IMG/VR virus record: IMGVR_UViG_3300022752_000343
Location: 1-25,941 of that record
DNA: 25,941 bases
Strand: one strand, 5' to 3'
Source of the DNA: a virus
Each line of letters starts with the position of its first letter. The stretch's first letter is position 1. This document shows positions 5,434-25,084 of this stretch, piece by piece. A program made the position numbers and the translations under genes. The notes under the pieces were generated by a model, which saw only the letters and a list, made by a program, of their open reading frames with translations, was not told the origin of the DNA and did no database searches.

Positions 5434-6258
5434 ATGCCAGGTTTTATCCTTGGCACGAGCAAACTTGGCGAGGATCGACTTGGGCCGATAGGTGTTGCAA
5501 CTTCTAGTCTTGGGAATCTAAATGCTCAGGCAAGTGCGAATGTTACAAATTACGCATCTGCTCAAAGTATTTTTGGCTCGCTTGAAAGTAATGCCAATAC
5601 AACAGTCACAAATTACGCAACTGCAACAATATCTTTCGGAGAATTAACAAGCGCGGCAAGTGCTTCTGTTGTCAATAATGTTTCTGCTCAAAGTCTCTTT
5701 GGAGAACTTGTAGGAAATGCGATTGCGTCAGTTAGTCACGAAGCAAGCGCATCATCTTCTCTTGGAGATTTATCAAGCAACGCTGGCGCAGTAGTCACAA
5801 ATTATGCAACAGGGCAATCGGACTTTGGCTCTTGTGTCATAGATGCCACTGCCACAGTCATTCATTCAGTTCAAGCAGATTCAACGCTTGGCTCTTTGAC
5901 CGCCTCGGCAGAGGCTCAGGTTGATAATGTTGTCAGTGCAAATGCTTCTTTCGGAAGCCTTGCAAGTGCTACTTCTGCGGAAGTTACTCACTACGCATCA
6001 GGCACGAGCGATCTTGGCGAGATGTCTGCCAATGCAAACACGCAACCTGAATCACAAATTACTGCAACAACCGGCGGTGGTCATCAGTTCGTTCAACCGA
6101 ACTTTGTTCCAACGCTAGACATTGTCAAAGAACCTTCAGTGAAGACGCAGTTCGGCATCATTGTCGCTGCGCAATTCGGGGGTCTAAATTCAGAAGCCAC
6201 GAGCGACATCACCTTCTCTATCACAGAAGACGAGTCCGAATTGTTGCTCTTGATCTAG
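5434..6258 (+). CDS. 274-aa protein built of 21-residue repeats
   Basis: Not assignable to a named family by eye. Residues 24-191 are eight gap-free repeats of exactly 21 residues. Each follows the pattern S-x-[LF]-G-x-L-x-x-x-A-x-A-x-V-x-N-x-x-S-A-x, for example SSLGDLSSNAGAVVTNYATGQ; a ninth unit starts at 192 with SDLGEM. The units are Ala/Ser/Asn rich with regular hydrophobic positions and no cysteine pattern, which suggests a beta-solenoid or similar fibrous rod. A non-repeat domain follows (about 205-274). No good Shine-Dalgarno precedes the ATG, which lies four bases after the previous stop, so coupled translation is likely. Its position among head genes suggests a fibre or decoration on the head. 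Confidence 0.75.
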   Translation: MPGFILGTSKLGEDRLGPIGVATSSLGNLNAQASANVTNYASAQSIFGSLESNANTTVTNYATATISFGELTSAASASVVNNVSAQSLFGELVGNAIASVSHEASASSSLGDLSSNAGAVVTNYATGQSDFGSCVIDATATVIHSVQADSTLGSLTASAEAQVDNVVSANASFGSLASATSAEVTHYASGTSDLGEMSANANTQPESQITATTGGGHQFVQPNFVPTLDIVKEPSVKTQFGIIVAAQFGGLNSEATSDITFSITEDESELLLLI

Positions 6259-6267
6259 GAAGAGAAA

Positions 6268-7791
6268 ATGCCCTATTACATATCAGACAAGCAAGACGAT
6301 TGCCAAGGATGGGCAACAGTCAAAGAAGAATCTGATGGTTCTTATACGACAATTGGATGTCATTCTTCAAAGCAAGATGCGATTGACCAAATGGTGGCAG
6401 TTTCAATTTCAGAAGATATGGAACCAGGCGGAGAAGTTCGCCAAGTAGATTTGACCGCACCTCAGTTTATCCGCGACAACGCAGCTCGTGGTTTGAAATA
6501 TCTTGAGGAAGGTTTTGGGGGCGATGGTTTGACTGACGGCACAAAGCGCGAAGCACGCGAAATGGCCGCAGGTCGAATCAGCGAAAACAAAGTTCGCAAG
6601 ATGGCACCTTGGTTTGCTCGTCATAAAGTTGACGGCCAAGCGCCAAAGAACAGAGATTCATCGCATCCGCAATACCCAGGAGCAGGTCTTGTTGCTTGGT
6701 TATTGTGGGGCGGAGATTCAAACTTTAGTGACAGAACGCAAAATTGGGCGCAACGAAAGATTGATGCCCTAGATGCCGAAGCCGATTCAAGGAGCAAAAT
6801 GGCAAAGAAAATCGAACGCCGCACTTACACAGTGCGCGATGTAGAAGCGCGAGCAGATGGAAAGAAGATGCGCCTGTCTGGTTACGCGGCGGTCTTCAAT
6901 GACTCAAGCCTTCCACTGCCTTTCAAAGAGAGCATCGCGCCAGGAGCGTTCCGTAAGACTCTCAGTGAGACACCTGATGTGCGCCTTCTTATCAATCACG
7001 AAGGTCTGCCTCTAGCTCGCACAAAGAATGGCACTTTGAAACTTGAAGAAGATGAGCGCGGATTGAGATTTGATGCGCAACTTGCAGACACGCAAGAAGG
7101 TCGGGATATTTATGAACTTGTCCGTCGTGGCGATGTGGATCAAATGTCATTTGCCTTCCGCGTTATTCGCCAAAAATGGAATGATGATAGAAGCACCCGA
7201 GTTCTCACCGAAGTTTCACTAGCAGATGGCGATGTCTCTGTTGTGACATACCCTGCCTATCCAACAACAACTGTTGAAGCCCGTGAACATATCAAGAACG
7301 CTATTAAGGCAATCAAAGAAGGTCGCGAAGTAACCGGCGAATCTCTCATTGTTGTTCAGGCAATTCTTGACAAAATTGATGAATCTTATGAATACCTTGA
7401 TGAAGGAAAGACAATGCTTGAGCAACTTCTCGGGATTATGCCTGAAGAAGATGTCCTTGAAGAAGATTCTCGTGCCGTTGATGTCGTAGGCGATTTCGTT
7501 GAATGGGATTCATCGGGCGGAACTGCACGCGGTCGCATTGAACATGTTATGCGCGAAGGTGTGCTTGGCATTCCAAATTCAGATTTCTCCATAACTGCCG
7601 AAGAAGGCGACCCTGCAATTTTAATTCGCGTTTATCGTGAACTCCGCGATGGATGGGTTGAAACTGAAACCCTCGTCGGTCATAAATCATCAGAGCTTCG
7701 CGCTATTGATCCGTTACCTGCGCCAAGTGAAGAAGAAGGTCGCAAGATTTCTTTGCGCCTTGCTCAAGCAATTATCAACGCCACAAAATAG
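6268..7791 (+). CDS. prohead protease, three-module polyprotein
   Basis: A 507-aa protein with three parts. Residues 1 to about 175 hold two N-terminal modules: a CQGWATVKEESDG/GCHSSKQDA segment, then a helical region with ARGLKYLEEG, KVRKMAPWFARHKVD and GAGLVAWLLWGGD. Residues about 178-345 are the HK97-type prohead protease (SGYAAVFNDSS, GAFRKTL, INHEG, DQMSFAF, VSVVTYPAYP); H244 and S294 are the likely catalytic pair. Residues about 405-485 resemble a small beta-barrel domain seen attached to phage proteases (FVEWDSSGGTARGRIEHV, then GDPAILIRVY and LVGHKSSEL). The protease processes the capsid shell during assembly. M178 has its own AAGGAG, so a shorter protease may also be made. Confidence 0.9.
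   Translation: MPYYISDKQDDCQGWATVKEESDGSYTTIGCHSSKQDAIDQMVAVSISEDMEPGGEVRQVDLTAPQFIRDNAARGLKYLEEGFGGDGLTDGTKREAREMAAGRISENKVRKMAPWFARHKVDGQAPKNRDSSHPQYPGAGLVAWLLWGGDSNFSDRTQNWAQRKIDALDAEADSRSKMAKKIERRTYTVRDVEARADGKKMRLSGYAAVFNDSSLPLPFKESIAPGAFRKTLSETPDVRLLINHEGLPLARTKNGTLKLEEDERGLRFDAQLADTQEGRDIYELVRRGDVDQMSFAFRVIRQKWNDDRSTRVLTEVSLADGDVSVVTYPAYPTTTVEAREHIKNAIKAIKEGREVTGESLIVVQAILDKIDESYEYLDEGKTMLEQLLGIMPEEDVLEEDSRAVDVVGDFVEWDSSGGTARGRIEHVMREGVLGIPNSDFSITAEEGDPAILIRVYRELRDGWVETETLVGHKSSELRAIDPLPAPSEEEGRKISLRLAQAIINATK
6789..6801 (+). promoter_or_regulatory. internal ribosome site in the protease gene
   Basis: AAGGAG at 6789-6794 lies four bases before an in-frame ATG at 6799 (M178). This start would give a 330-aa product that begins at the edge of the prohead protease domain (MAKKIERRTYTV). 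The site matches the strength of the true gene starts here. It could be chance in a Lys/Arg-rich linker. Confidence 0.4.
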
Positions 7792-7794
7792 ATT

Positions 7795-7812
7795 TCTGCT
7801 CATTCGAGCAGA
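7795..7812 (+). other. 7-bp stem-loop after the protease stop
   Basis: TCTGCTC (7795-7801) and GAGCAGA (7806-7812) are perfect inverted repeats around a 4-base loop ATTC. There is no T-run after it, so it is not a typical rho-independent terminator. It starts six bases after the AAA codon that precedes the protease TAG. The 109-base gap 7792-7900 contains no other feature than the capsid ribosome site AAGGAG at 7886-7891. Confidence 0.5.
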
Positions 7813-7900
7813 TTGAAGTCGGAGCGAACCTCACACCCGAAAAGCGCCGTGAGCATCTTCGCCACCACCTCGCAACCCAACTCACAAGGAGCAAAACTCA

Positions 7901-9247
7901 ATGTCATATCTTGACAAAGTAGTCGAGCGCCGTGATGCAGTGAAGGCAGAAATGGATGCAGTTCTTGAGGCAGTTGCCGCAGAGAACCGCACCGATTTGA
8001 CCGCAGAGGAAACCGCAAAGGTTGATGCTCTAGTCGCTGAATCCCGTTCTCTCGATGAGAAGATTGAAAAGCTCACTGCACAAGCAGCAGCAGATGCGAA
8101 AGCCGCAGAAGCACGCTCAGCAGTAGCAGACATCGCAACACCAAAGGTAGGCGGTTTCAAGGTAACACGCGAAGCTCGCACCTACACATCTGACTCAGAT
8201 GCTTCCTTCTTCAAGGATGCTTATAACGCACAGTTCAAATCAGACTATGCTGCACAAGAACGCCTTGCTCGCCATCAGCGCGAAGAGTCAATTGAGCGCC
8301 GCGATGTCGGAACTGCTCAATTTGAAGGTCTAGTAATCCCACAATATCTCGTTGATCTCGCTGCGCCTCTTGCTCGTGCAGGTCGCCCATTCGCAGACTT
8401 CGTGACAAACAAGATGACACTCCCACCAAGCGGAATGACCTTGAATATCTCTCGCATGACCACAGGCTCATCAACTGCCGTTCAAGTAACACAGAACGAT
8501 GCAGTTAGCGAAACCGATGTTGATGACACACTATTGACCATCAATGTTCGCACCATCGCCGGTCAGCAAGACATTTCCCGTCAAGCAATTGAACGTGGAA
8601 CAGGTATTGATGCATTTGTAGCAGCAGACCTCATCAAGTCTTGGCACACCACACTTGATGCACAACTTCTTAATGGATCAGGAAACGCAGGACAGATTCA
8701 GGGTCTTCGCAATGCAGGTGGAAATGCAATTACTTTCACCTCAACTGCTCCGACAGTAGGTTTGCTATATCCGAAGCTCGCTGACGCAATTCAGCAGATT
8801 CAGACAAATTCATTCAACAACCCAACTCACTTCGTAATGCACCCACGCCGCCTTGCATTCTTGCTCGCTGCGGTTGATTCAACAAACCGTCCACTTGTTG
8901 TTCCTGCGGCTAATGGCCCAACGAACGCTTCAGGTGTCGGTGCAGGTGCTGCTGCTTACGGAAACTCTGGTTATCAGATGATGGGTCTTCCAATTGTGAC
9001 CGATGCAAACATCGGAACAACCTACGGAACCACAACAAATCAAGATGAAATCTATGTTGTGACCGCAGGCGAATCTCACCTTTGGGAACAACCAGGTTCT
9101 CCATTCACACTTCGCTATGACGCGACAGGTGCAGGAAACCTAACCATCAAAACCGTTGTTTATGGTTACGCTGCCTATACCGCAGGTCGTTACCCAACTG
9201 CCGCTTCCATCATTAGTGGAACAGGCTTGTCAGCACCAACCTTCTAG
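7901..9247 (+). CDS. major capsid protein (HK97 fold)
   Basis: A 448-aa shell protein. Residues 1 to about 75 are a charged, heptad-like coiled coil (ERRDAVKAEMDAVLEAVAAE, then LDEKIEKLTAQAA), the delta/scaffold domain usually removed by the prohead protease. The remainder has family features: GLVIPQYLVDLAAPLARAGR at about 143-162, a SGMTLNISRM segment, a DISRQAIERG helix start, THFVMHPRRLAFL and GLPIVTDANI. AAGGAG lies nine bases upstream. It follows the protease directly, as usual, and a strong RNA hairpin follows it, so it is probably expressed far above the next gene. Confidence 0.95.
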   Translation: MSYLDKVVERRDAVKAEMDAVLEAVAAENRTDLTAEETAKVDALVAESRSLDEKIEKLTAQAAADAKAAEARSAVADIATPKVGGFKVTREARTYTSDSDASFFKDAYNAQFKSDYAAQERLARHQREESIERRDVGTAQFEGLVIPQYLVDLAAPLARAGRPFADFVTNKMTLPPSGMTLNISRMTTGSSTAVQVTQNDAVSETDVDDTLLTINVRTIAGQQDISRQAIERGTGIDAFVAADLIKSWHTTLDAQLLNGSGNAGQIQGLRNAGGNAITFTSTAPTVGLLYPKLADAIQQIQTNSFNNPTHFVMHPRRLAFLLAAVDSTNRPLVVPAANGPTNASGVGAGAAAYGNSGYQMMGLPIVTDANIGTTYGTTTNQDEIYVVTAGESHLWEQPGSPFTLRYDATGAGNLTIKTVVYGYAAYTAGRYPTAASIISGTGLSAPTF

Positions 9248-9269
9248 TCTTTAACTAGAAGTCAAGATT

Positions 9270-9312
9270 GTGCAGAGGCGGTTAAGGCCCCCCGACTTAA
9301 TCGTCTCTGCAC
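9270..9312 (+). promoter_or_regulatory. 17-bp RNA hairpin after the capsid gene
   Basis: Left arm GTGCAGAGGCGGTTAAG (9270-9286) pairs with right arm CTTAATCGTCTCTGCAC (9296-9312) over all 17 positions; two of the pairs are G-U, so the pairing is complete only as RNA of the plus strand. The loop is GCCCCCCGA. No T-run follows, so it is more likely an RNA-stabilising, pausing or translation-control element than a classic terminator. Confidence 0.75.
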
Positions 9313-9318
9313 TTCCTA

Positions 9319-9334
9319 AAGTTCGGGGGAACTT
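9319..9334 (+). promoter_or_regulatory. hairpin enclosing the next ribosome site
   Basis: AAGTTC (9319-9324) and GAACTT (9329-9334) pair perfectly around a GGGG loop and end one base before the ATG at 9335. The loop G-run is the Shine-Dalgarno sequence of the glycosyltransferase. TCGGGGG (9323-9329) is also fully complementary to CCCCCGA (9289-9295) in the loop of the preceding hairpin, so a loop-loop or pseudoknot contact is possible. Confidence 0.6.
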
Positions 9335-10018
9335 ATGAAATCAGGTCACAAAGTTTCAATTGGGTCATGTGATCCTGGAATGGTCAATGGCGGATTCGCT
9401 TATCACCTTATCCAACTCGCATCGGCACGAGCATCAAGGCTTGGCCCTTTTGTTCGCATTAAAGGTTCAGGCTTACTTTCCAAGCAGCGCAACCGAGTAG
9501 TCAAGCAATTCCTAGAAATGACTGACTCTGATTGGCTCTTGATGATTGATTCCGATGAACAACTTGATGTGTTGACATTCGACAGATTATGCGAAACCGC
9601 ACACGATAAAGAACGCCCTGTCGTTGCCGGTCTAGTCTTTGCGGGTTTCGGAGTCGCAGGCAAGCCATATCCCAAGCCTGTTCCCGCAATTTTTCAAGAC
9701 TCACCCAATGGATTTCTTCCACTTTACAAATACGACAAGAACTCTGTCTTTGAGATTGATGCCGCAGGCACAGGGTGCCTGATGGTTCACCGAAGCGTTC
9801 TTGAAGCTATCCGCGACAATGCTGATCCTAATCAAGGCAAGGATTGGTGTTGGTTTTGGGATGGGCCTGTCAAAGGCGAATGGATAGGCGAGGACTTGCT
9901 TTTCTGTCGCCGCATCAAGTCTTTAGGTTTCCCAATATATGTGAACACCGCAGCAATTTTGCCTCATCAAAAGTCTTATTGGCTCAAAGAGGAACACCAC
10001 GACTCATGGCGCGACTAA
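9335..10018 (+). CDS. glycosyltransferase, GT-A type
   Basis: A 227-aa protein with a GT-A glycosyltransferase layout. It has an N-terminal sugar-nucleotide region with GLLSKQRNRVVKQFLEM, the metal-binding DSD motif at D72-S73-D74 (WLLMIDSDEQ), and a late GEDLLFCRRIKSLGFPIYVN segment like the ED-x-x-F-C-x-x of family 2 enzymes. It should transfer a sugar from a nucleotide donor; donor and acceptor are unknown. Its place between capsid and connector suggests that a virion protein may be glycosylated, which is inference. Its ribosome site is inside the hairpin at 9319-9334. Confidence 0.8.
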   Translation: MKSGHKVSIGSCDPGMVNGGFAYHLIQLASARASRLGPFVRIKGSGLLSKQRNRVVKQFLEMTDSDWLLMIDSDEQLDVLTFDRLCETAHDKERPVVAGLVFAGFGVAGKPYPKPVPAIFQDSPNGFLPLYKYDKNSVFEIDAAGTGCLMVHRSVLEAIRDNADPNQGKDWCWFWDGPVKGEWIGEDLLFCRRIKSLGFPIYVNTAAILPHQKSYWLKEEHHDSWRD

Positions 10019-10155
10019 AGCGCAAGGAAACTGCAACGGCCGCTCCTAAACTTGAGCGAGCAATTCAATCAAAACCAAAGAAGAGGACTACAAGTGGCAA
10101 TCACCAACGGCTACGCAACTCTCGCGGAAGTAAAGTCATCTCTAGCGATAACTGA
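10006..10155 (+). CDS. possible 49-aa basic protein overlapping two genes
   Basis: An ATG at 10006 opens a 49-aa frame beginning MARLKRKETATAAP that is very rich in Lys and Arg. It covers the 75-base gap between the glycosyltransferase stop (10018) and the connector start (10094), then runs 62 bases into the connector gene. AGAGGA lies rather far (12 bases) upstream. It could be a real small gene that leads translation into the connector, or chance; I cannot assign a function. Confidence 0.35.
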   Translation: MARLKRKETATAAPKLERAIQSKPKKRTTSGNHQRLRNSRGSKVISSDN

Positions 10156-10702
10156 TACGAGCGATGATGCTTTGCTTGAAATCTCTATTACTGCCACGAG
10201 CAGAATGATTGATGACTATTGCGGGCGCTTCTTTTATGCTGACGGCACAAGCCAAAGCCCTGTTGTTCGTTATTACACCGCACAAAATCCTTGGAGTCTT
10301 GCGGTAGATGATTTCACTTCTATCACAGGCATCGCCACCGACGACAACTTCAATCAAACTTGGTCAACAGTCTGGTCAACTTCTGACTTTATGACTGAGC
10401 CAATCAATAACCCTCGTCGCGGTTGGCCTTACACAAGACTCTTGGCAACAGGCGCTTATGTCTTCCCTTATTACTTACCACAGGCAGTCAAGGTGACAGG
10501 CGTGTGGGGATGGTCGGCAATCCCATCGGAAGTCAATCAGGCCTGCATCATTCAATCTTCGCGCCTCTTTGTGCGCAAGCAATCGCCTTTCGGTATTGCA
10601 GGAACTCCCGAACTTGGAACAGTGCGTCTAGCATCAAAGCTTGATCCTGATGTTGAGGCACTACTTCGTCCAATGAAAAGAAATAATGGTTTGGCAGTAT
10701 GA
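10094..10702 (+). CDS. head-tail connector / adaptor protein
   Basis: A 202-aa connector that binds the portal after packaging. I choose the GTG at 10094 (VAITNGYATLAEVKSSLAIT) over the ATG at 10052 because this family typically starts with this helix and AGAGGA lies 5-8 bases upstream. Residues about 8-40 match the usual start of gp6-like adaptors (TLAEVKSSLAITDTSDDALLEISI and a RMIDDYCGR helix); the C-terminal part has a helix with ACIIQSSRLFVRKQSP. It ends in an ATGA overlap with the next gene. Confidence 0.8.
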   Translation: MAITNGYATLAEVKSSLAITDTSDDALLEISITATSRMIDDYCGRFFYADGTSQSPVVRYYTAQNPWSLAVDDFTSITGIATDDNFNQTWSTVWSTSDFMTEPINNPRRGWPYTRLLATGAYVFPYYLPQAVKVTGVWGWSAIPSEVNQACIIQSSRLFVRKQSPFGIAGTPELGTVRLASKLDPDVEALLRPMKRNNGLAV

Positions 10703-11097
10703 ATCCAAGCACTGTTCGTGACCGACTCAAGAGTGCGCTTCAAACCATCTCAGGTCTGCGTGCTTATGACTTGATCCCCGATACTGTCGTGCCACCTGCC
10801 GCAGTAGTCGGACAACTAGATTTCACATTTGATATTGACAATGCTCGTGGTCTTGACCAAGCGCAAGTTGATGTCCTTGTGATTGTGCAACGCTTTTCAG
10901 AACGCTCAGGACAAGACAAGTTGGATGCCTACCTTGCAGGGTCAGGTGCTAGCTCTATCAAGGCCGCGCTTGAAAGTGATCGCACTTTGTCGGGAGCAGT
11001 GAACACACTGCGAGTCACAGGCGCTGAAGCAGGCACTTATGATTCACAAGGCGTCACTTTTCTCTCTTACAGATACAGACTCACGCTTTGGGGATAG
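10699..11097 (+). CDS. tail terminator-like / neck protein
   Basis: A 132-aa alpha/beta protein between the adaptor and the tail tube genes, the usual slot for a head-closure or tail-terminator protein. It starts with a helix (STVRDRLKSALQTISGLRAYD), continues with beta-type segments (QAQVDVLVIVQRFSERSGQDKLDAYL) and ends LSYRYRLTLWG, similar in outline to tail-terminator proteins. Call by outline and position, not by a diagnostic motif. Start overlaps the previous stop as ATGA. Confidence 0.55.
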   Translation: MNPSTVRDRLKSALQTISGLRAYDLIPDTVVPPAAVVGQLDFTFDIDNARGLDQAQVDVLVIVQRFSERSGQDKLDAYLAGSGASSIKAALESDRTLSGAVNTLRVTGAEAGTYDSQGVTFLSYRYRLTLWG

Positions 11098-11105
11098 GAG
11101 AATAA

Positions 11106-11282
11106 ATGACTTACAAGGTCATCTCAGACCGCGAGGTCTGTGGAAAGAAGCAAGGTGAGATTCTTACCTTGAAAGAACTCGAAGATGCAGGCGCAAACAT
11201 TGATGCTCTCATTGTCGGCGGTCATCTTGAAGTAGCAAATAAACCAACAATCAAACCAGCACAAGAAGGAGCCAAAAACTAA
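11106..11282 (+). CDS. 58-aa tail-region protein
   Basis: A small gene in the gap before the tail tube, with AGGAG upstream and TAATG overlap with the next ATG. The sequence begins MTYKVISDREVCGKKQGEIL and reads as a small acidic domain with a TLKELEDAGANIDALIVGGHLE segment and a flexible Lys/Pro end. Small proteins of this kind with LKELEDAG-like motifs sit beside tail genes in many phages, with unknown role. Confidence 0.7.
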   Translation: MTYKVISDREVCGKKQGEILTLKELEDAGANIDALIVGGHLEVANKPTIKPAQEGAKN

Positions 11283-11692
11283 TGGCACGCATTGTCCTCA
11301 CAAATGCCTATGTCACTGTCAACTCTGTTGATGTCAGCGACCATGTGGCATCAGTAACTCTCAACTCATCCATTGATGTTGTTGAAACAACTGCATTCGG
11401 AACAACCGGCGCACGCACACGCATCGGTGGCCTTGCAGATAACTCAATCACTTTGGAATTTCACCAAGACTATGCTTCAGGTTCTATTGAAGCAACTGTC
11501 TATCCTCTACTCGGCACCACAACCACAGTTGTTGTGAAGCCAAATGGCGGAACAACTAGCGCAACAAACCCTTCATATACTTCAACAGTTCTCGTCGCAG
11601 AATGGACACCACTCAACGGCGCAGTCGGCGAACTCGCTACTGCTTCCGTGACATGGCCTGTTAGCGGCGCAATTACGAAGGCAACTGTATAG
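11282..11692 (+). CDS. major tail tube protein, copy 1
   Basis: A 136-aa beta-rich protein directly before the tail assembly chaperone and tape measure, where the tail tube gene belongs. Features include MARIVLTNAYVTVNSVDVSD, LADNSITLEFHQDYASGS and EWTPLNGAVGELATASVTWP. The next gene encodes a protein roughly 70% identical by my manual alignment, with one residue deleted near position 46. Its TAG overlaps the next GTG start. It is short compared with many tail tube proteins but complete by comparison with its copy. Confidence 0.8.
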   Translation: MARIVLTNAYVTVNSVDVSDHVASVTLNSSIDVVETTAFGTTGARTRIGGLADNSITLEFHQDYASGSIEATVYPLLGTTTTVVVKPNGGTTSATNPSYTSTVLVAEWTPLNGAVGELATASVTWPVSGAITKATV

Positions 11693-12099
11693 TGGCAAGA
11701 CTCGTTCTCACCAATGCCTTCGTCAAATTCGGCAGCGTTGATCTCTCAGACCATATTGCAAGCGTGTCTTTGAATACGACTTACGATATTGTTGAAACAA
11801 CTGCTTTTGGAGATACGGCAAAGAAGAGAGTGGCGGGCTTGGCAGACAACTCTGTCAGCTTTGAATTTCATCAAGATTACGCTTCAGGCTCGGTTGAATC
11901 TACAATCTATCCGCTTCTTGGAACCGCAATCACCTGTGAAGTTCGACCTGTCAACACGACAGTCAGTGCCACAAATCCCAAATACACCTTCTCAGTGCTA
12001 ATCTCTGAATGGACACCGCTCAATGGTGCTGTGGGAGAATTAGCCACTGCAAGTGTGACTTGGCCGATTTCGGGTGCCATAACAAAAGCAACATCCTGA
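11692..12099 (+). CDS. major tail tube protein, copy 2
   Basis: A 135-aa paralogue of the preceding gene, starting at a GTG that shares its G with the previous TAG. The two proteins share the blocks LADNS, EFHQDYASGS and EWTPLNGAVGELATASVTWP exactly. Differences lie mainly in the first 35 residues and around 85-100. Most of the differences are conservative, so both copies seem under selection. Either both build the tube, or one has taken a special place such as the tube end. Confidence 0.8.
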   Translation: MARLVLTNAFVKFGSVDLSDHIASVSLNTTYDIVETTAFGDTAKKRVAGLADNSVSFEFHQDYASGSVESTIYPLLGTAITCEVRPVNTTVSATNPKYTFSVLISEWTPLNGAVGELATASVTWPISGAITKATS

Positions 12100-12120
12100 T
12101 AACTACTAGGGGGAAAATAA

Positions 12121-12399
12121 ATGGATGGACTGAAAATACGCGTCAAGACGACTGATGGAATAGATGCAACTTATTCGTTGCGCCCACGCATCATCGTCGA
12201 GTTTGAAACGAAATACAACAAGGGCTTGGCTAAACTCATTGCCGAAGAGCAGAAGTTGGAACATATCTACTTCCTTGCTTGGTCAGCAATGAAACACAAT
12301 GGTCGTGTCGTCAAGCCTTTTGGCTCCGACTTCCTTGATACTCTTGAAGAAGTCTCGCTGGTCACAGACCCTTCTTCCGAATCCACAGAGACAGTCTGA
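12121..12399 (+). CDS. tail assembly chaperone, first part
   Basis: A 92-aa protein following the tail tube genes and preceded by AGGGGG. It resembles the G part of split tail assembly chaperones: RPRIIVEFETKYNKGLAKLIAEEQKLEHIYFLAWSAMK, then KPFGSDFLDTLEEVSLV. Its TGA at 12397-12399 is followed in the -1 frame by a typical second (T) part. It keeps the tape measure soluble during tail assembly. Confidence 0.75.
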   Translation: MDGLKIRVKTTDGIDATYSLRPRIIVEFETKYNKGLAKLIAEEQKLEHIYFLAWSAMKHNGRVVKPFGSDFLDTLEEVSLVTDPSSESTETV

Positions 12400-12527
12400 T
12401 TTATTCAATAGCAGCTCTCTCTGTGGAGACGGGAATTTCGCCGGTCGCATTAGTTGATGCGCCTGACGGTATTTTGGAAGCAATGTTTGTTTATGTGAAA
12501 GAACGAGCAAAGGCGCGGAACAAGTAA
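12399..12527 (+). CDS. tail assembly chaperone, second part (-1 frame)
   Basis: The -1 frame is open from 12348 to the TAA at 12525-12527. It encodes SIAALSVETGISPVALVDAP followed by GILEAMFVYVKERAKARNK, the usual C-terminal part of siphophage chaperones (ALATGIPPxxLL-like helix, then a basic helix). The coordinates given run from the ATT that shares its A with the upstream TGA. The usual route is -1 ribosomal slippage from the first part; the only slip-capable codon I see is C-CCT at 12369-12372, which is weak. Start at the ATT by termination-reinitiation is an alternative. Its stop overlaps the next ATG as TAATG. Confidence 0.65.
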   Translation: MYSIAALSVETGISPVALVDAPDGILEAMFVYVKERAKARNK

Positions 12528-13174
12528 TGGATTCACCCAATTATCGAATTTCAATTCAGGGATTGAACAACACAATCTCTGCCATTGAGCGTTTCGCGCC
12601 TGATCTCAAGAAGCAACTTGACCGGGAGGTAAAAGGCATTCTCAGTAAGGTTGTAGAGGAAGCCCGTGGTCATATTCCTTTTGACATTCATCCTTCGGGG
12701 TGGGCGCGAGAGAATAAGAACGCGAGCCTTATTGGGCCTCTGCAAGAAGGTCAAGGTCGTGGAACATTTAAGCGATTTGATGCTGCTAAGGCCAAGGCAG
12801 GAATTAAAGCAACGACACCAACATCAAAATCAAGTTCAACAGGTTTTCGCAATTCGTATGGCGTAATTCAACGCGATGCGGCAGGTGCTATCTTTGAAAC
12901 TGCCGGTCGCGGAAGCAAAGCAAGTCGCGCACGCACTCGTGCTTCTCGATCCACAAATCCAACTGCATCACAAGACTTCATTCAAGCAGTTGAGAAATAT
13001 TATGGCGTTCTGCCAACTGCCAAAGGTCTTGGTCAAGATAAAGGTCGCGCCCTTATTCGTGCAGTTGATGACAACAAGAAATCTGCGCAGCGTGCTATCT
13101 TTGAAGCGGTCAAGAATGCTGAATCTAAAGCACAGACTCGAATGGATGAAAATTTGAGCAGGAGAGAGGGATAA
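12527..13174 (+). CDS. HK97 gp10-like / minor tail protein
   Basis: A 215-aa basic protein just before the tape measure. The N-terminus (IQGLNNTISAIERFAPDLKKQL, then VKGILSKVVEEARGHIP) resembles HK97 gp10-like neck or tail proteins. The centre is rich in Ser, Arg and Lys, and the C-terminal third is charged helix. In classical maps this type of gene lies before the tail tube; here it lies after the chaperone, which makes the exact role uncertain. Confidence 0.5.
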   Translation: MDSPNYRISIQGLNNTISAIERFAPDLKKQLDREVKGILSKVVEEARGHIPFDIHPSGWARENKNASLIGPLQEGQGRGTFKRFDAAKAKAGIKATTPTSKSSSTGFRNSYGVIQRDAAGAIFETAGRGSKASRARTRASRSTNPTASQDFIQAVEKYYGVLPTAKGLGQDKGRALIRAVDDNKKSAQRAIFEAVKNAESKAQTRMDENLSRREG

Positions 13175-13177
13175 TCG

Positions 13178-15574
13178 ATGGCAATTATTGAACGCATTGT
13201 CACGGTCTATAACGACAAAGGCTCCAAGCAGGCCCTCAATGACCTCAAGAAATTAGAAGCAACCTTCACAAATTCCGCCAAGAAGATTGCTAAAGCCTTC
13301 GGCGCCGCCACCGTCGCGGCAGCAGCATTGGCAACCAAACTCGCCGTTGACGGAGTGCAGGCCGCTATCGCGGATCAGAAGTCACAGGCTCTTCTTGCCA
13401 ACGCCCTTCGCAACACGACAGGGGCCAATGAAGCCGCTATTGCTTCAGTTGAAAGTTATATTGCGGCGCAACAAAAAGCCGTCGTCGTCACCGACGACGA
13501 GTTGAGGCCATCGCTTGCGACCCTTGTGAATGCGACCAAGGATGTTGCTCAAGCTCAAAGCCTTCAAAATCTTGCCCTTGATATTTCGGCAGGCACTCAA
13601 AAAGATCTGCAAACAGTTTCCTTGGCACTTGCCAAAGCCGTCGGCGGAAATATCGGCGCTCTGACAAAACTAGGCGTTCCACTCTCTGCCGATGTAAAGA
13701 AGAGCAAAGACCTCAATGGCGCTCTTCAAGAACTAAGCAAGACATTTGCAGGCGCAGCATCTACACGCGCACAGACATTTGAAGGCAGAATGACTGCGCT
13801 TCGCATCTCTTTCAGCGAAGCCTTGGAGAGCCTTGGTTATGCCCTCATCCCTGTTCTTGAAGAATTAGCAAAAGTCTTTCAAACACAACTTATCCCGATT
13901 TTTGAACAATTTATCGCAAACAATAAAGATGAAATTGCTCGAACTTTGGGCAATATCATCACATTTGGTATCAACGCAGCAAAAGCCCTTGCCTCATTGT
14001 TCAAGACTATTTCAGACAACTTGACAACATTCAAAGTCTTCGCAGGAATCCTCACAGGCATCTTTGTTGGAACTAAAGTCTATGCGGGCATCATTGCCAT
14101 CGTTGGTGCATTAAAACTTCTCACAGCAACTTTCAGACAACAAGCTATTGCAGGCACCGCCGCAGGCACTGCCACCGCTTTTGCAACCGGCGGTGCGTCA
14201 GCACTTGCCGCCGCCGCAGGCTTGACTGCGTTTGCCGCCGCCGCAGGTGCAACTTGGTATGCAATAAATAAATTGACCGATAGCATCAAAATCAATCTAT
14301 CTGCAACGAATGAATACACCAAAGCAACAAATGGTCACATCAACGAATTAAATCGTTTGGCTCAGGCTACTGCTGCCGCTAATCTTCAAAATACAAAAGG
14401 CTTGAAAGTTATCACGACCAACACTGCCAAAACAAAGGCGCAGATTCTTCTTGAAAAGACACTCGCTGCCTTGAGGAAAAAAGGCATCATCCCAACTTCT
14501 TCACTTCCTAAAGAAACGCAAGAAGCCATCAATCTTGAAGCCGCTCGACTCAATCAAATCAAGCAAGGTAATCTTGAAGAGCAACGCCGCGTTGAAGCCT
14601 TGATGAAGAATCTTGAAGCGCAGATGAAGCTCAATGAAGCAGCGCAACGATATGCCGACCTTCTCACTGTTCTTTCCGATCAAGTCATCAGCGACGAAGA
14701 AGTTTCGGTTCTTGCTCAAAAGTGGAATATCACTAAGGGTGAAGTTCTTGAATATATCGCCCGCATCTATGCTGCCAACTCCACTGATCTCAATGACGGC
14801 CCTATTGTCAACCTCTTGATGAAGTGGGGATTGACCAAGGAAGAAGCCGAGAAGTATGTAGATTTCACACGCGCCCTCAAAGACGAAAAGATTGACGACA
14901 AGGAAATCGAAGAGTTGATGGGCAAGTGGGGAATGACTCGCGCTGAGGTCATCTCTTATGCGAAACAAGTTCAAGATGGAACTGCGTTACAAAAGGCTCT
15001 TTCAAAGTCGTGGGCTTTGCCAGGCGATGAGGCCGCCGAAGCATGGAAACGCGCCCTTGCCGCTCTCAATGCCTATCTCGCCGCCCTCAAAGGCGTCGGC
15101 GGAGCAGGCGCAGGTGCTGGTGCAGGTGCTGGTGCAGGTGCTGGTGCTGGTGCAGGTGCAGGTGCAGGTGCTTCAAGCCCTGCCTATGCATCAGTGACGG
15201 CACTTCAAAATCATATAGACGACTTGACTGCAATGCGCACAGAGGTCGGTGGTGCAACTGCTCTCGGTATCAAACTCAAAGAACAAATTGACGAATATAC
15301 CGACCAAATAAAATTCGGTTCTGAGGCTCTTGGAACTGTTGTTGATGAGTCAACAAAAGCAGCGATGATGAACGCCTTGCGCCCTGGCACTATTACTGCC
15401 GATTCAAGTTTTGATCCTTCTTCATTCCGTATGTCAGAAAATGCAGGAATGACAATCAATATGACTGTTCAAGGCAATGTGCAGACTGAGAAAGATTTGG
15501 CAGACGCTATCCGTCAACGAATCTTGAGTGAGCAAGCAAGCGGTAAGCCAATCCTCTTTGTTGGCGGGTTGTAA
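13178..15574 (+). CDS. tail tape measure protein
   Basis: The longest gene (798 aa), which sets tail length. The start has a GGAGAGAGGG ribosome site. Residues about 1-230 are the conserved tape-measure domain (LNDLKKLEATFTNSAKKIAKAF; LGVPLSADVKKSKDLNGALQ; FEGRMTALRISFSEALESLG). Residues about 270-370 are hydrophobic and Ala-rich and include probable membrane helices. Three tandem 34-residue units follow, with KW at W516, W550 and W584. An (Ala-Gly) run lies at about 643-665, then a conserved-looking C-terminus. Followed by a TAATG overlap. Confidence 0.92.
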   Translation: MAIIERIVTVYNDKGSKQALNDLKKLEATFTNSAKKIAKAFGAATVAAAALATKLAVDGVQAAIADQKSQALLANALRNTTGANEAAIASVESYIAAQQKAVVVTDDELRPSLATLVNATKDVAQAQSLQNLALDISAGTQKDLQTVSLALAKAVGGNIGALTKLGVPLSADVKKSKDLNGALQELSKTFAGAASTRAQTFEGRMTALRISFSEALESLGYALIPVLEELAKVFQTQLIPIFEQFIANNKDEIARTLGNIITFGINAAKALASLFKTISDNLTTFKVFAGILTGIFVGTKVYAGIIAIVGALKLLTATFRQQAIAGTAAGTATAFATGGASALAAAAGLTAFAAAAGATWYAINKLTDSIKINLSATNEYTKATNGHINELNRLAQATAAANLQNTKGLKVITTNTAKTKAQILLEKTLAALRKKGIIPTSSLPKETQEAINLEAARLNQIKQGNLEEQRRVEALMKNLEAQMKLNEAAQRYADLLTVLSDQVISDEEVSVLAQKWNITKGEVLEYIARIYAANSTDLNDGPIVNLLMKWGLTKEEAEKYVDFTRALKDEKIDDKEIEELMGKWGMTRAEVISYAKQVQDGTALQKALSKSWALPGDEAAEAWKRALAALNAYLAALKGVGGAGAGAGAGAGAGAGAGAGAGAGASSPAYASVTALQNHIDDLTAMRTEVGGATALGIKLKEQIDEYTDQIKFGSEALGTVVDESTKAAMMNALRPGTITADSSFDPSSFRMSENAGMTINMTVQGNVQTEKDLADAIRQRILSEQASGKPILFVGGL
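15104..15172 (+). repeat. (GCWGGT)n hexanucleotide run in the tape measure gene
   Basis: About 11.5 tandem six-base units, mostly GCAGGT and GCTGGT, encode alternating Ala and Gly. The unit is six bases, so gain or loss of units keeps the reading frame. The run looks like a slippage-prone minisatellite forming a flexible linker between the 34-residue repeats and the C-terminal part. Confidence 0.9.
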
Positions 15575-20121: not shown

Positions 20122-20391
20122 ATGAATCGGGGGAAGATTTTGGATGAGGCAAAACGCCTCACCGCAACGGATCGCAACGAGATATATGGCGACCCTTATA
20201 CGAATCACAAACGCATCGCAGACCTGTGGAGTGTTTATCTTGAAACTGAGATAAGCCCTTCGCAGGTCGCTTTGTGTTTATCGCTTGTCAAAATTGCTCG
20301 CCTCATTGAGTCACCGAATCATTTGGACTCTTACATTGATTTGGCAGCATATAGCGCCATTGCGGGGGAGATTTCTGATGCATCTGAATAA
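20122..20391 (+). CDS. DUF6378-like phage protein
   Basis: An 89-aa protein with the pattern I associate with a small phage family: ILDEAKRLTATDRNEIYGDPYTNH, then RIADLWSVYLETEISPSQVA, then LVKIARLIESPNHLDSYIDLAAY. All helical, acidic, with conserved Y-G-D-P and D-S-Y-D/I-D. Biochemical role unknown. It overlaps the next start by 14 bases. Confidence 0.7.
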   Translation: MNRGKILDEAKRLTATDRNEIYGDPYTNHKRIADLWSVYLETEISPSQVALCLSLVKIARLIESPNHLDSYIDLAAYSAIAGEISDASE

Positions 20392-21055: not shown

Positions 21056-21795
21056 AGTGCATTGCCTTCTCGCTCTATGGCAACGAGTCTCGCTACACGA
21101 TAGGCGCAATCAAGAACGCGATTCTTGCTTCACGATACTTTCCCTTTGACGATGGTTTCATAGTTCGCTTCTATATCAGCGTCAACTCAAGCGTTGATGA
21201 ATCCATCATCTCAACTTTAGAGCGAGTCAAAGGCGTGCAAATCAGCATCGTCGGCGAACCTGAAGACCATCGGGCGAAGTTGTGGCGTTACTATGCCTTT
21301 TCTGATCCGCAATTCAACGCCGTCATCTGTCGTGATGTTGACGCTCGCCTGTCGTTTCGGGATCGAGTAGCTCACGAAGATTGGGAGCAGTCAGGTCTTG
21401 ATTACCACATCATCAAAGACCATCCGAGCGGTCACGACTATCCCATCTCTGCCGGTATGTTTGCGGGCAAGACGAAGAATCTGCGTGATATGGAAGAGCG
21501 CATTCACACCGCCAATGTCGGCAACTATTACACCACCGACCAAGACTTCTTGGCTTCACAGATTTATCCACGCATCAAAGATTCAGTCCTCATTCACGAT
21601 CCGTATTACGACACAGAGGTTGAAGGCAAATCAATTCGCACTAGGATTCCCTTTGATGCTCCTTCGCCTCTGTCACATATAGGCGCAGCTCTCAATGCCG
21701 ATGACACCTTTGTCTTTGATGTTGACCGAAAATTGAACGCATCTGATGGTTACTCTGAAAAATATCAATATGAAAGCGACAGGTGGGGGAAATGA
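21052..21795 (+). CDS. glycosyltransferase-like protein with DVD motif
   Basis: A 247-aa protein starting MKCIAFSLYGNESRYTIGAI. It has an IVGEPEDHRAKLWRYYAFSDP segment and VICRDVDARLS with D95-x-D97 as a probable metal-binding DxD, then SAGMFAGKTKNLRDM and TTDQDFLASQIYPR. This matches the outline of GT-A enzymes acting on surface sugars. Its TGA overlaps the epimerase ATG. Confidence 0.7.
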   Translation: MKCIAFSLYGNESRYTIGAIKNAILASRYFPFDDGFIVRFYISVNSSVDESIISTLERVKGVQISIVGEPEDHRAKLWRYYAFSDPQFNAVICRDVDARLSFRDRVAHEDWEQSGLDYHIIKDHPSGHDYPISAGMFAGKTKNLRDMEERIHTANVGNYYTTDQDFLASQIYPRIKDSVLIHDPYYDTEVEGKSIRTRIPFDAPSPLSHIGAALNADDTFVFDVDRKLNASDGYSEKYQYESDRWGK

Positions 21796-24734: not shown

Positions 24735-25084
24735 TGGCTAATCCCAATGGTCGCAAAGGCTCTGCCTTTGAAATCGGAGTTCTCAAGTGGTTGCGTTCTC
24801 GTGGTGTCACCGCAGAGCGTTTGCGTCTATCGGGATCACAAGATGAAGGAGACATTGTTGCGTTCATTGCTGGCAAGACTTATGTGTTGGAACTCAAGAA
24901 CCGCAAATCAATCTCGCTTCCGACCTTTTGGGATGAGGCCTGCAAAGAAGCCAAAAACTATGCAAAGGCGCGGGGGCTTGAAGTAACACCACCATCATTT
25001 GTTGTGGTCAAGCGTCGCAATGCATCTATTGAACGAGCTTTCGTTATCCAAGACCTTGAATCCTGGTTAGGTGAAAGACAATAG
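24734..25084 (+). CDS. Holliday junction resolvase-like PD-(D/E)XK nuclease
   Basis: A 116-aa nuclease with E13 (GSAFEIGVLKWLRSRG), D40 (GSQDEGDIVAF) and E53-x-K55 (YVLELKNR), the metal-binding set of the PD-(D/E)XK fold. This order and spacing resemble small phage Holliday junction resolvases. It would cut branched DNA before packaging or in recombination. Its TAG overlaps the next GTG. Confidence 0.8.
   Translation: MANPNGRKGSAFEIGVLKWLRSRGVTAERLRLSGSQDEGDIVAFIAGKTYVLELKNRKSISLPTFWDEACKEAKNYAKARGLEVTPPSFVVVKRRNASIERAFVIQDLESWLGERQ

Follow-up and report, generated by a model that had tools for sequence, protein, structure and literature searches.

The window analysed here is a 25,941-nt stretch of viral DNA (positions 1 to 25,941 of IMG/VR record IMGVR_UViG_3300022752_000343), in which a WhiB gene at 25084 suggests an actinobacterial host. 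Its major capsid protein gene (Pfam PF05065, Phage_capsid, 4.8e-16; PHROG 2263, 1.7e-52) is followed by a gene for a glycosyltransferase-like protein of 227 aa (PHROG 34859, 2.3e-25), for which a Pfam search gave no match. The junction between the two genes is laid out as follows.

7901–9247, + strand: major capsid protein gene, with stop codon TAG at 9245–9247
9241–9261, + strand: small hairpin H0, CTTCTAGT-CTTTA-ACTAGAAG, with the capsid stop codon inside its 5' arm
9270–9312, + strand: hairpin H1, 17 bp including two G-U pairs; arms GTGCAGAGGCGGTTAAG (9270–9286) and CTTAATCGTCTCTGCAC (9296–9312), loop GCCCCCCGA (9287–9295)
9289–9295, + strand: conserved CCCCCGA of the H1 loop, 5' strand of a putative pseudoknot stem 2
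9313–9322, + strand: TTCCTAAAGT, the linker that would remain with all seven stem 2 pairs formed
9319–9334, + strand: hairpin H2, 6 bp, AAGTTC (9319–9324), GGGG (9325–9328) and GAACTT (9329–9334), with the Shine-Dalgarno (SD) sequence in its loop; alternative to stem 2
9323–9329, + strand: TCGGGGG, the glycosyltransferase SD and 3' strand of the putative stem 2
9335–10018, + strand: glycosyltransferase-like gene, 227 aa, starting at ATG 9335

Direct reading confirmed the two hairpins of a preliminary description of this DNA, the first of 17 bp with two G-U pairs and the second of 6 bp ending at the ATG; the spacer between them, given there as seven bases, is TTCCTA and thus six. The seven-base match that it proposed is exact, CCCCCGA (9289–9295) being the reverse complement of TCGGGGG (9323–9329). 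On folding, 9268–9334 formed both hairpins at -33.3 kcal/mol, and in a folding scan of the contig, 60-nt segments containing H1 ranked with the most stable. H1 starts 22 nt past the capsid stop codon, so that ribosomes ending translation of the capsid gene should leave it folded.

Conservation and covariation of the junction hairpins

We scanned IMG/VR with the capsid and glycosyltransferase proteins and thereby retrieved relatives without reference to RNA. A capsid homologue lay immediately upstream of the glycosyltransferase in all 315 checkable loci, with a gap of 60–119 nt; some contigs are counted more than once among these 315, some loci come from a loop-pattern scan, and the loci behind the counts given here are related by descent. 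An uninterrupted H1-type stem was present in 76 of 78 distinct protein-retrieved junction segments, and the other two (L069 and L333) had a single mismatch. The 56 distinct elements have stems of 16 bp (n = 38), 17 bp (n = 17) or 18 bp (n = 1). The preliminary description had looked to relatives with the same gene order for the hairpin and its loop complementarity, and comparison of their junctions showed both to be kept.

The arms themselves have turned over among relatives (for example, GTGCAGAGGCGGTTAAG, GTGAAGAGTGGGTAGG and GGCCAGCAGCTGGGTT). We counted covariation separately for each stem length, leaving out a mixed 16/17-bp MAFFT alignment (A3) that was misregistered. In 12 diverse 16-bp stems every cell was paired and two-sided changes occurred at 15 of 16 pairs; the covariation score was 0.747, against 0.314 ± 0.033 for shuffled stems (0 of 500 shuffles), and sliding the partner arm lowered pairing to 28–48%. 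Twelve 17-bp stems were likewise 100% paired, with two-sided changes at 10 of 17 pairs and 0 of 500 shuffles on four of five measures. Slid controls over both length classes were 28–49% paired.

Across 58 stems we counted 858 Watson–Crick and 87 G-U pairs, against one A-C and one other. A G-U pair on the + strand would read A-C on the other strand; selection has therefore acted on + strand RNA. A perfect inverted repeat could in principle be read as a DNA element, such as a protein-binding or recombination site, and not as an RNA structure. A DNA site would favour neither strand, however, and would not account for 87 G-U pairs beside a single A-C; moreover, pairing alone is conserved here and the sequence of the arms is not. 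We ruled out a DNA-level palindrome on the strand asymmetry and give such a reading next to no probability. Judged by comparison of sequences, H1 is a real RNA element, selected as + strand RNA and not a product of chance.

The smaller hairpins follow a similar pattern. In 53 of the 56 distinct elements the G run is flanked by arms that pair over 3 bp or more and vary in sequence (AAGTTC/GAACTT, GATTC/GAATC, GAATC/GATTC, CTCTT/GAGAG, CTTT/AAAG and ACTA/TAGT among them); by this comparison H2 varies around the SD yet persists among relatives. H0, over the capsid stop codon, is also conserved while both of its arms change (CTTCTAGT/ACTAGAAG, AACCTTC/GAAGGTT and GCTTCTA/TAGAAGC).

A very stable hairpin directly after a major capsid gene could also work at the level of the transcript. 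As a terminator, an RNase III site or a 3'-end stabiliser, H1 would protect the capsid mRNA and thin the downstream transcript, and the match between loop and SD would be secondary. Mycobacteriophages with related capsids, of the Omegavirus and Marvinvirus type, resemble the window in having a strong hairpin after the capsid gene, although with other loops, and in the Pontimonas phage phiPsal1 (L369) the capsid and glycosyltransferase genes are separated by a canonical U-tract terminator (2385–2470). In none of 56 elements, however, do the 8 nt that follow H1 contain more than three consecutive T's, a terminator scan of 6000–14000 lists none at H1, and an ordinary U-tract terminator occurs elsewhere in the relative G025. 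The missing U tract rules out a canonical Rho-independent terminator at H1. A role at the transcript level would also leave the C5 loop, the G5 SD and the fixed stem length unexplained, and we consider it unlikely, while according it some weight.

The element had been described as one without a name, and indeed no covariance model of the 4,227 Rfam families matched it at the gathering or a relaxed threshold. A literature search of limited coverage found no description of an element at the capsid–glycosyltransferase junction. Profile searches of genome contigs with the glycosyltransferase returned no host-genome or prophage copies. The Planktophila phages E7 and F5, isolated phages of Nanopelagicales (PMC10202952), have only a distant glycosyltransferase (27–28%) without such an element upstream, so a cultured system that carries the element is still to be found.

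Complementarity between the H1 loop and the Shine-Dalgarno sequence

All 56 distinct elements carry CCCCCGA in the loop (with GA counted as stem in two), while the 5' flank and the length of the loop vary. Of 80 distinct sequences upstream of the glycosyltransferase gene, 79 have GGGGG as the SD, and in the same comparison the SD of the capsid gene is always AGGAG. For 42 of the 56 elements the longest exact complementarity between a loop and its own SD region spans at least 7 nt; for the other 14 it spans 5–6 nt. When the same 56 loops were compared with the G5 SD of a gene for a 92-aa protein at 12121, complementarity never exceeded 6 nt; the additional matching is therefore specific to the junction. 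Loop GA is retained also in elements whose SD flank offers it no pairing partner.

In the main family neither C5 nor G5 ever varies, which leaves no covariation to be seen in stem 2; the case for this putative stem rests on conservation and on one comparison from outside. Two loci, L362 and L363, have the loop CCCCCGATGC and the SD GCATCGGGGG, and a third, L364, has the loop CCCCTGTT and the SD AACAGGGG, in each case before a glycosyltransferase gene. These glycosyltransferases are 56% identical to one another and belong to a different family from that of the window; in the L362 contig, the gene is preceded by a small gene and by a capsid-like one unrelated in sequence to the window capsid. 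Between L362/L363 and L364, loop and SD change together and complementarity is kept. Once identity to the L362 glycosyltransferase drops below 50%, most relatives are without a loop–SD match.

Three further candidates were set aside. L375 is low-complexity sequence; L368 (Microcystis phage Mae-JY09, 2395–2506) has, before a glycosyltransferase gene, a 10-bp hairpin with a large loop that matches the SD region over 7 nt (CTCCCTG/CAGGGAG), which could be due to chance; and a second CCCCCGA/TCGGGGG pair in record G025 turned out to be an ordinary U-tract terminator.

Geometry and action of the proposed pseudoknot

Classical H-type pseudoknots have a stem of 5–6 bp, one turn of the helix shorter than 16–17 bp. 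When the helix is modelled as ideal A-form, the start and the end of the linker lie on the same face of the helix at stems of 5–6 bp and again at 16–17 bp, and a stem 1 of 16–17 bp is predicted to need a linker of about 7 nt at minimum. Most elements have linkers of 6–14 nt; five would have 3 nt if stem 2 were fully extended, and a few in the main family need one or more H1 pairs to be opened. L362 and L364 would have no linker with a full stem 2, and several H1 pairs would have to open. Within this model, linker length does fit an H-type pseudoknot in most elements.

The preliminary description offered a kissing loop or a pseudoknot, and only the second fits, with H2 opened. Kissing in cis of two intact hairpins is excluded in the ideal A-form model: the spacers of 0–10 nt would be too short, and the top of a 16–17-bp stem could not reach the H2 loop. 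In the window, the stem 2 duplex is worth -13.4 kcal/mol against -4.8 for H2, both figures before any pseudoknot loop penalty. Since stem 2 outweighs H2 and intact hairpins cannot kiss in cis, we favour a pseudoknot that would occlude the SD, with H2 as its alternative.

In late phage mRNA, the 16–17-bp H1 would fold downstream of the capsid stop codon, and its C-rich apical loop would pair with the G5 SD of the glycosyltransferase to form a stem 2 of 5–10 bp. The result would be an H-type pseudoknot, its linker lying along a single face of H1. With stem 2 open, the SD would sit in H2 instead, so that 30S binding would be hindered in both states and the same mRNA would give rise to a great many capsid proteins and few glycosyltransferase molecules. 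We put a probability of roughly 60% on this reading, in which a cis-acting RNA pseudoknot, or H2, hides the glycosyltransferase SD and keeps the enzyme low beside the capsid. From sequence we infer that stem 2 forms in the RNA, that it represses translation and that the level is constitutive rather than set by a signal. The idea of little enzyme beside much capsid gains some support from the phiPsal1 terminator at the same junction and from two mycobacteriophages, Porcelain (L277) and WXIN (L281), in which the SD of the next gene can, as in the window, be buried in a small hairpin, there a different one. The post-capsid loop that these two share, ATATAGC, differs from that of H1 in having no C run and is not complementary to the SD.

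In the preQ1-I riboswitch and similar leaders, a hairpin loop pairs downstream, at the ribosome site of the gene under control, and ribosomal-protein operators provide related pseudoknot control. H1 is like such SD-occluding H-type pseudoknots in that its loop is complementary to a downstream SD and conserved in homologues. The known examples have short stems of about 4–7 bp and known ligands or proteins, whereas the present element has a stem 1 of 16–17 bp and no known ligand and is placed between two head-operon genes; to our knowledge, it is unusual for a stem in a pseudoknot to span some one and a half turns of the helix. The principle of loop pairing with an SD is thus known; what is new, as far as we could determine, is a phased stem of this length, together with its gene context and the family.

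A further reading is a regulated switch, in which a ligand, temperature or a protein (the capsid or the enzyme itself) would act on H1 or its CCCCCGA loop and toggle between H2 and stem 2. Conservation of the loop GA where it cannot pair with the SD would suit such a switch, as would the existence of two mutually exclusive SD-hiding states, and phage T4 gene 32 offers a precedent in the pseudoknot operator that gp32 has in its own mRNA leader (PMC3014915, PMC535899). Beyond the loop there is no conserved core resembling a ligand pocket, however, and because the SD is hidden in both states a simple on/off logic is not evident. We regard a switch as very unlikely.

GGGGG Shine-Dalgarno sites elsewhere in these phages

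Across 22 related records, GGGGGAA followed by ATG occurs 1–7 times per record, always on the coding strand, against 0–1 occurrences of the reversed pattern. In the window, the 92-aa gene at 12121 (site 12097–12121) lies between the major tail protein and tape measure genes and has the SD RAGGGGGAA, which is kept in essentially all relatives (57–100% protein identity) while adjacent bases drift. No C5 partner was found near this SD, and G5 SDs occur without a nearby C5 partner at further genes. The tape measure protein itself contains a Gly-Ala run coded by a tandem repeat of the GGTGC(A/T)GGTGC type (15085–15165). Further GGGGG SD-like sites in the window are the following.

45–61: before the ParB/methyltransferase-like gene at 61
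20358–20378: second glycosyltransferase-like gene
21779–21792: epimerase-like gene at 21792, whose GGGGGAA is kept in closer relatives only

The recurrent G5 may be an SD style of these phages or the target set of a C-rich RNA. Under the latter view, the C5 loop of H1 would act in trans, either in addition to its action in cis or exclusively, on phage genes with a GGGGG SD, in the manner of the 6C/B11 small RNA of Actinobacteria, whose C-rich loops target G tracts at the ribosome sites of mycobacterial genes and, in the case of B11, repress through them (PMC10470900). The persistence of RAGGGGGAA at the 92-aa gene and the coding-strand bias of GGGGGAA–ATG sites are in keeping with this, and H1, like 6C/B11, presents a hairpin loop with a C run complementary to a G tract at a ribosome site. 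6C is, however, a free small RNA with two C-rich loops that acts in trans, whereas H1 has a single loop, lies in cis beside its target and has no match to the Rfam 6C family. In addition, the matching bases outside C5/G5 are specific to the SD of the glycosyltransferase, and G5 may be merely the SD variant that these phages use. Action in trans thus appears distinctly unlikely. The same low standing goes to its fullest form, in which the capsid 3' UTR hairpin would be the hub of a regulon, its C5 loop acting on the glycosyltransferase in cis and on other GGGGG-SD genes in trans (the 92-aa gene ahead of the tape measure gene and perhaps others) as capsid mRNA accumulates. If true, transcription of a structural gene would set how strongly late proteins made in sub-stoichiometric amounts are translated. 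The set of genes with a GGGGG SD in these phages is not one that a simple anti-SD model predicts.

H1 is an RNA element with strong covariation that had not been listed before, and it occurs at hundreds of environmental actinophage loci from a large family of lake-water phages. If the favoured reading, an SD-occluding pseudoknot acting in cis, is true, the element shows how one long head operon yields hundreds of capsid subunits and little of the adjacent enzyme, and it would offer a small system for testing long-stem pseudoknots.
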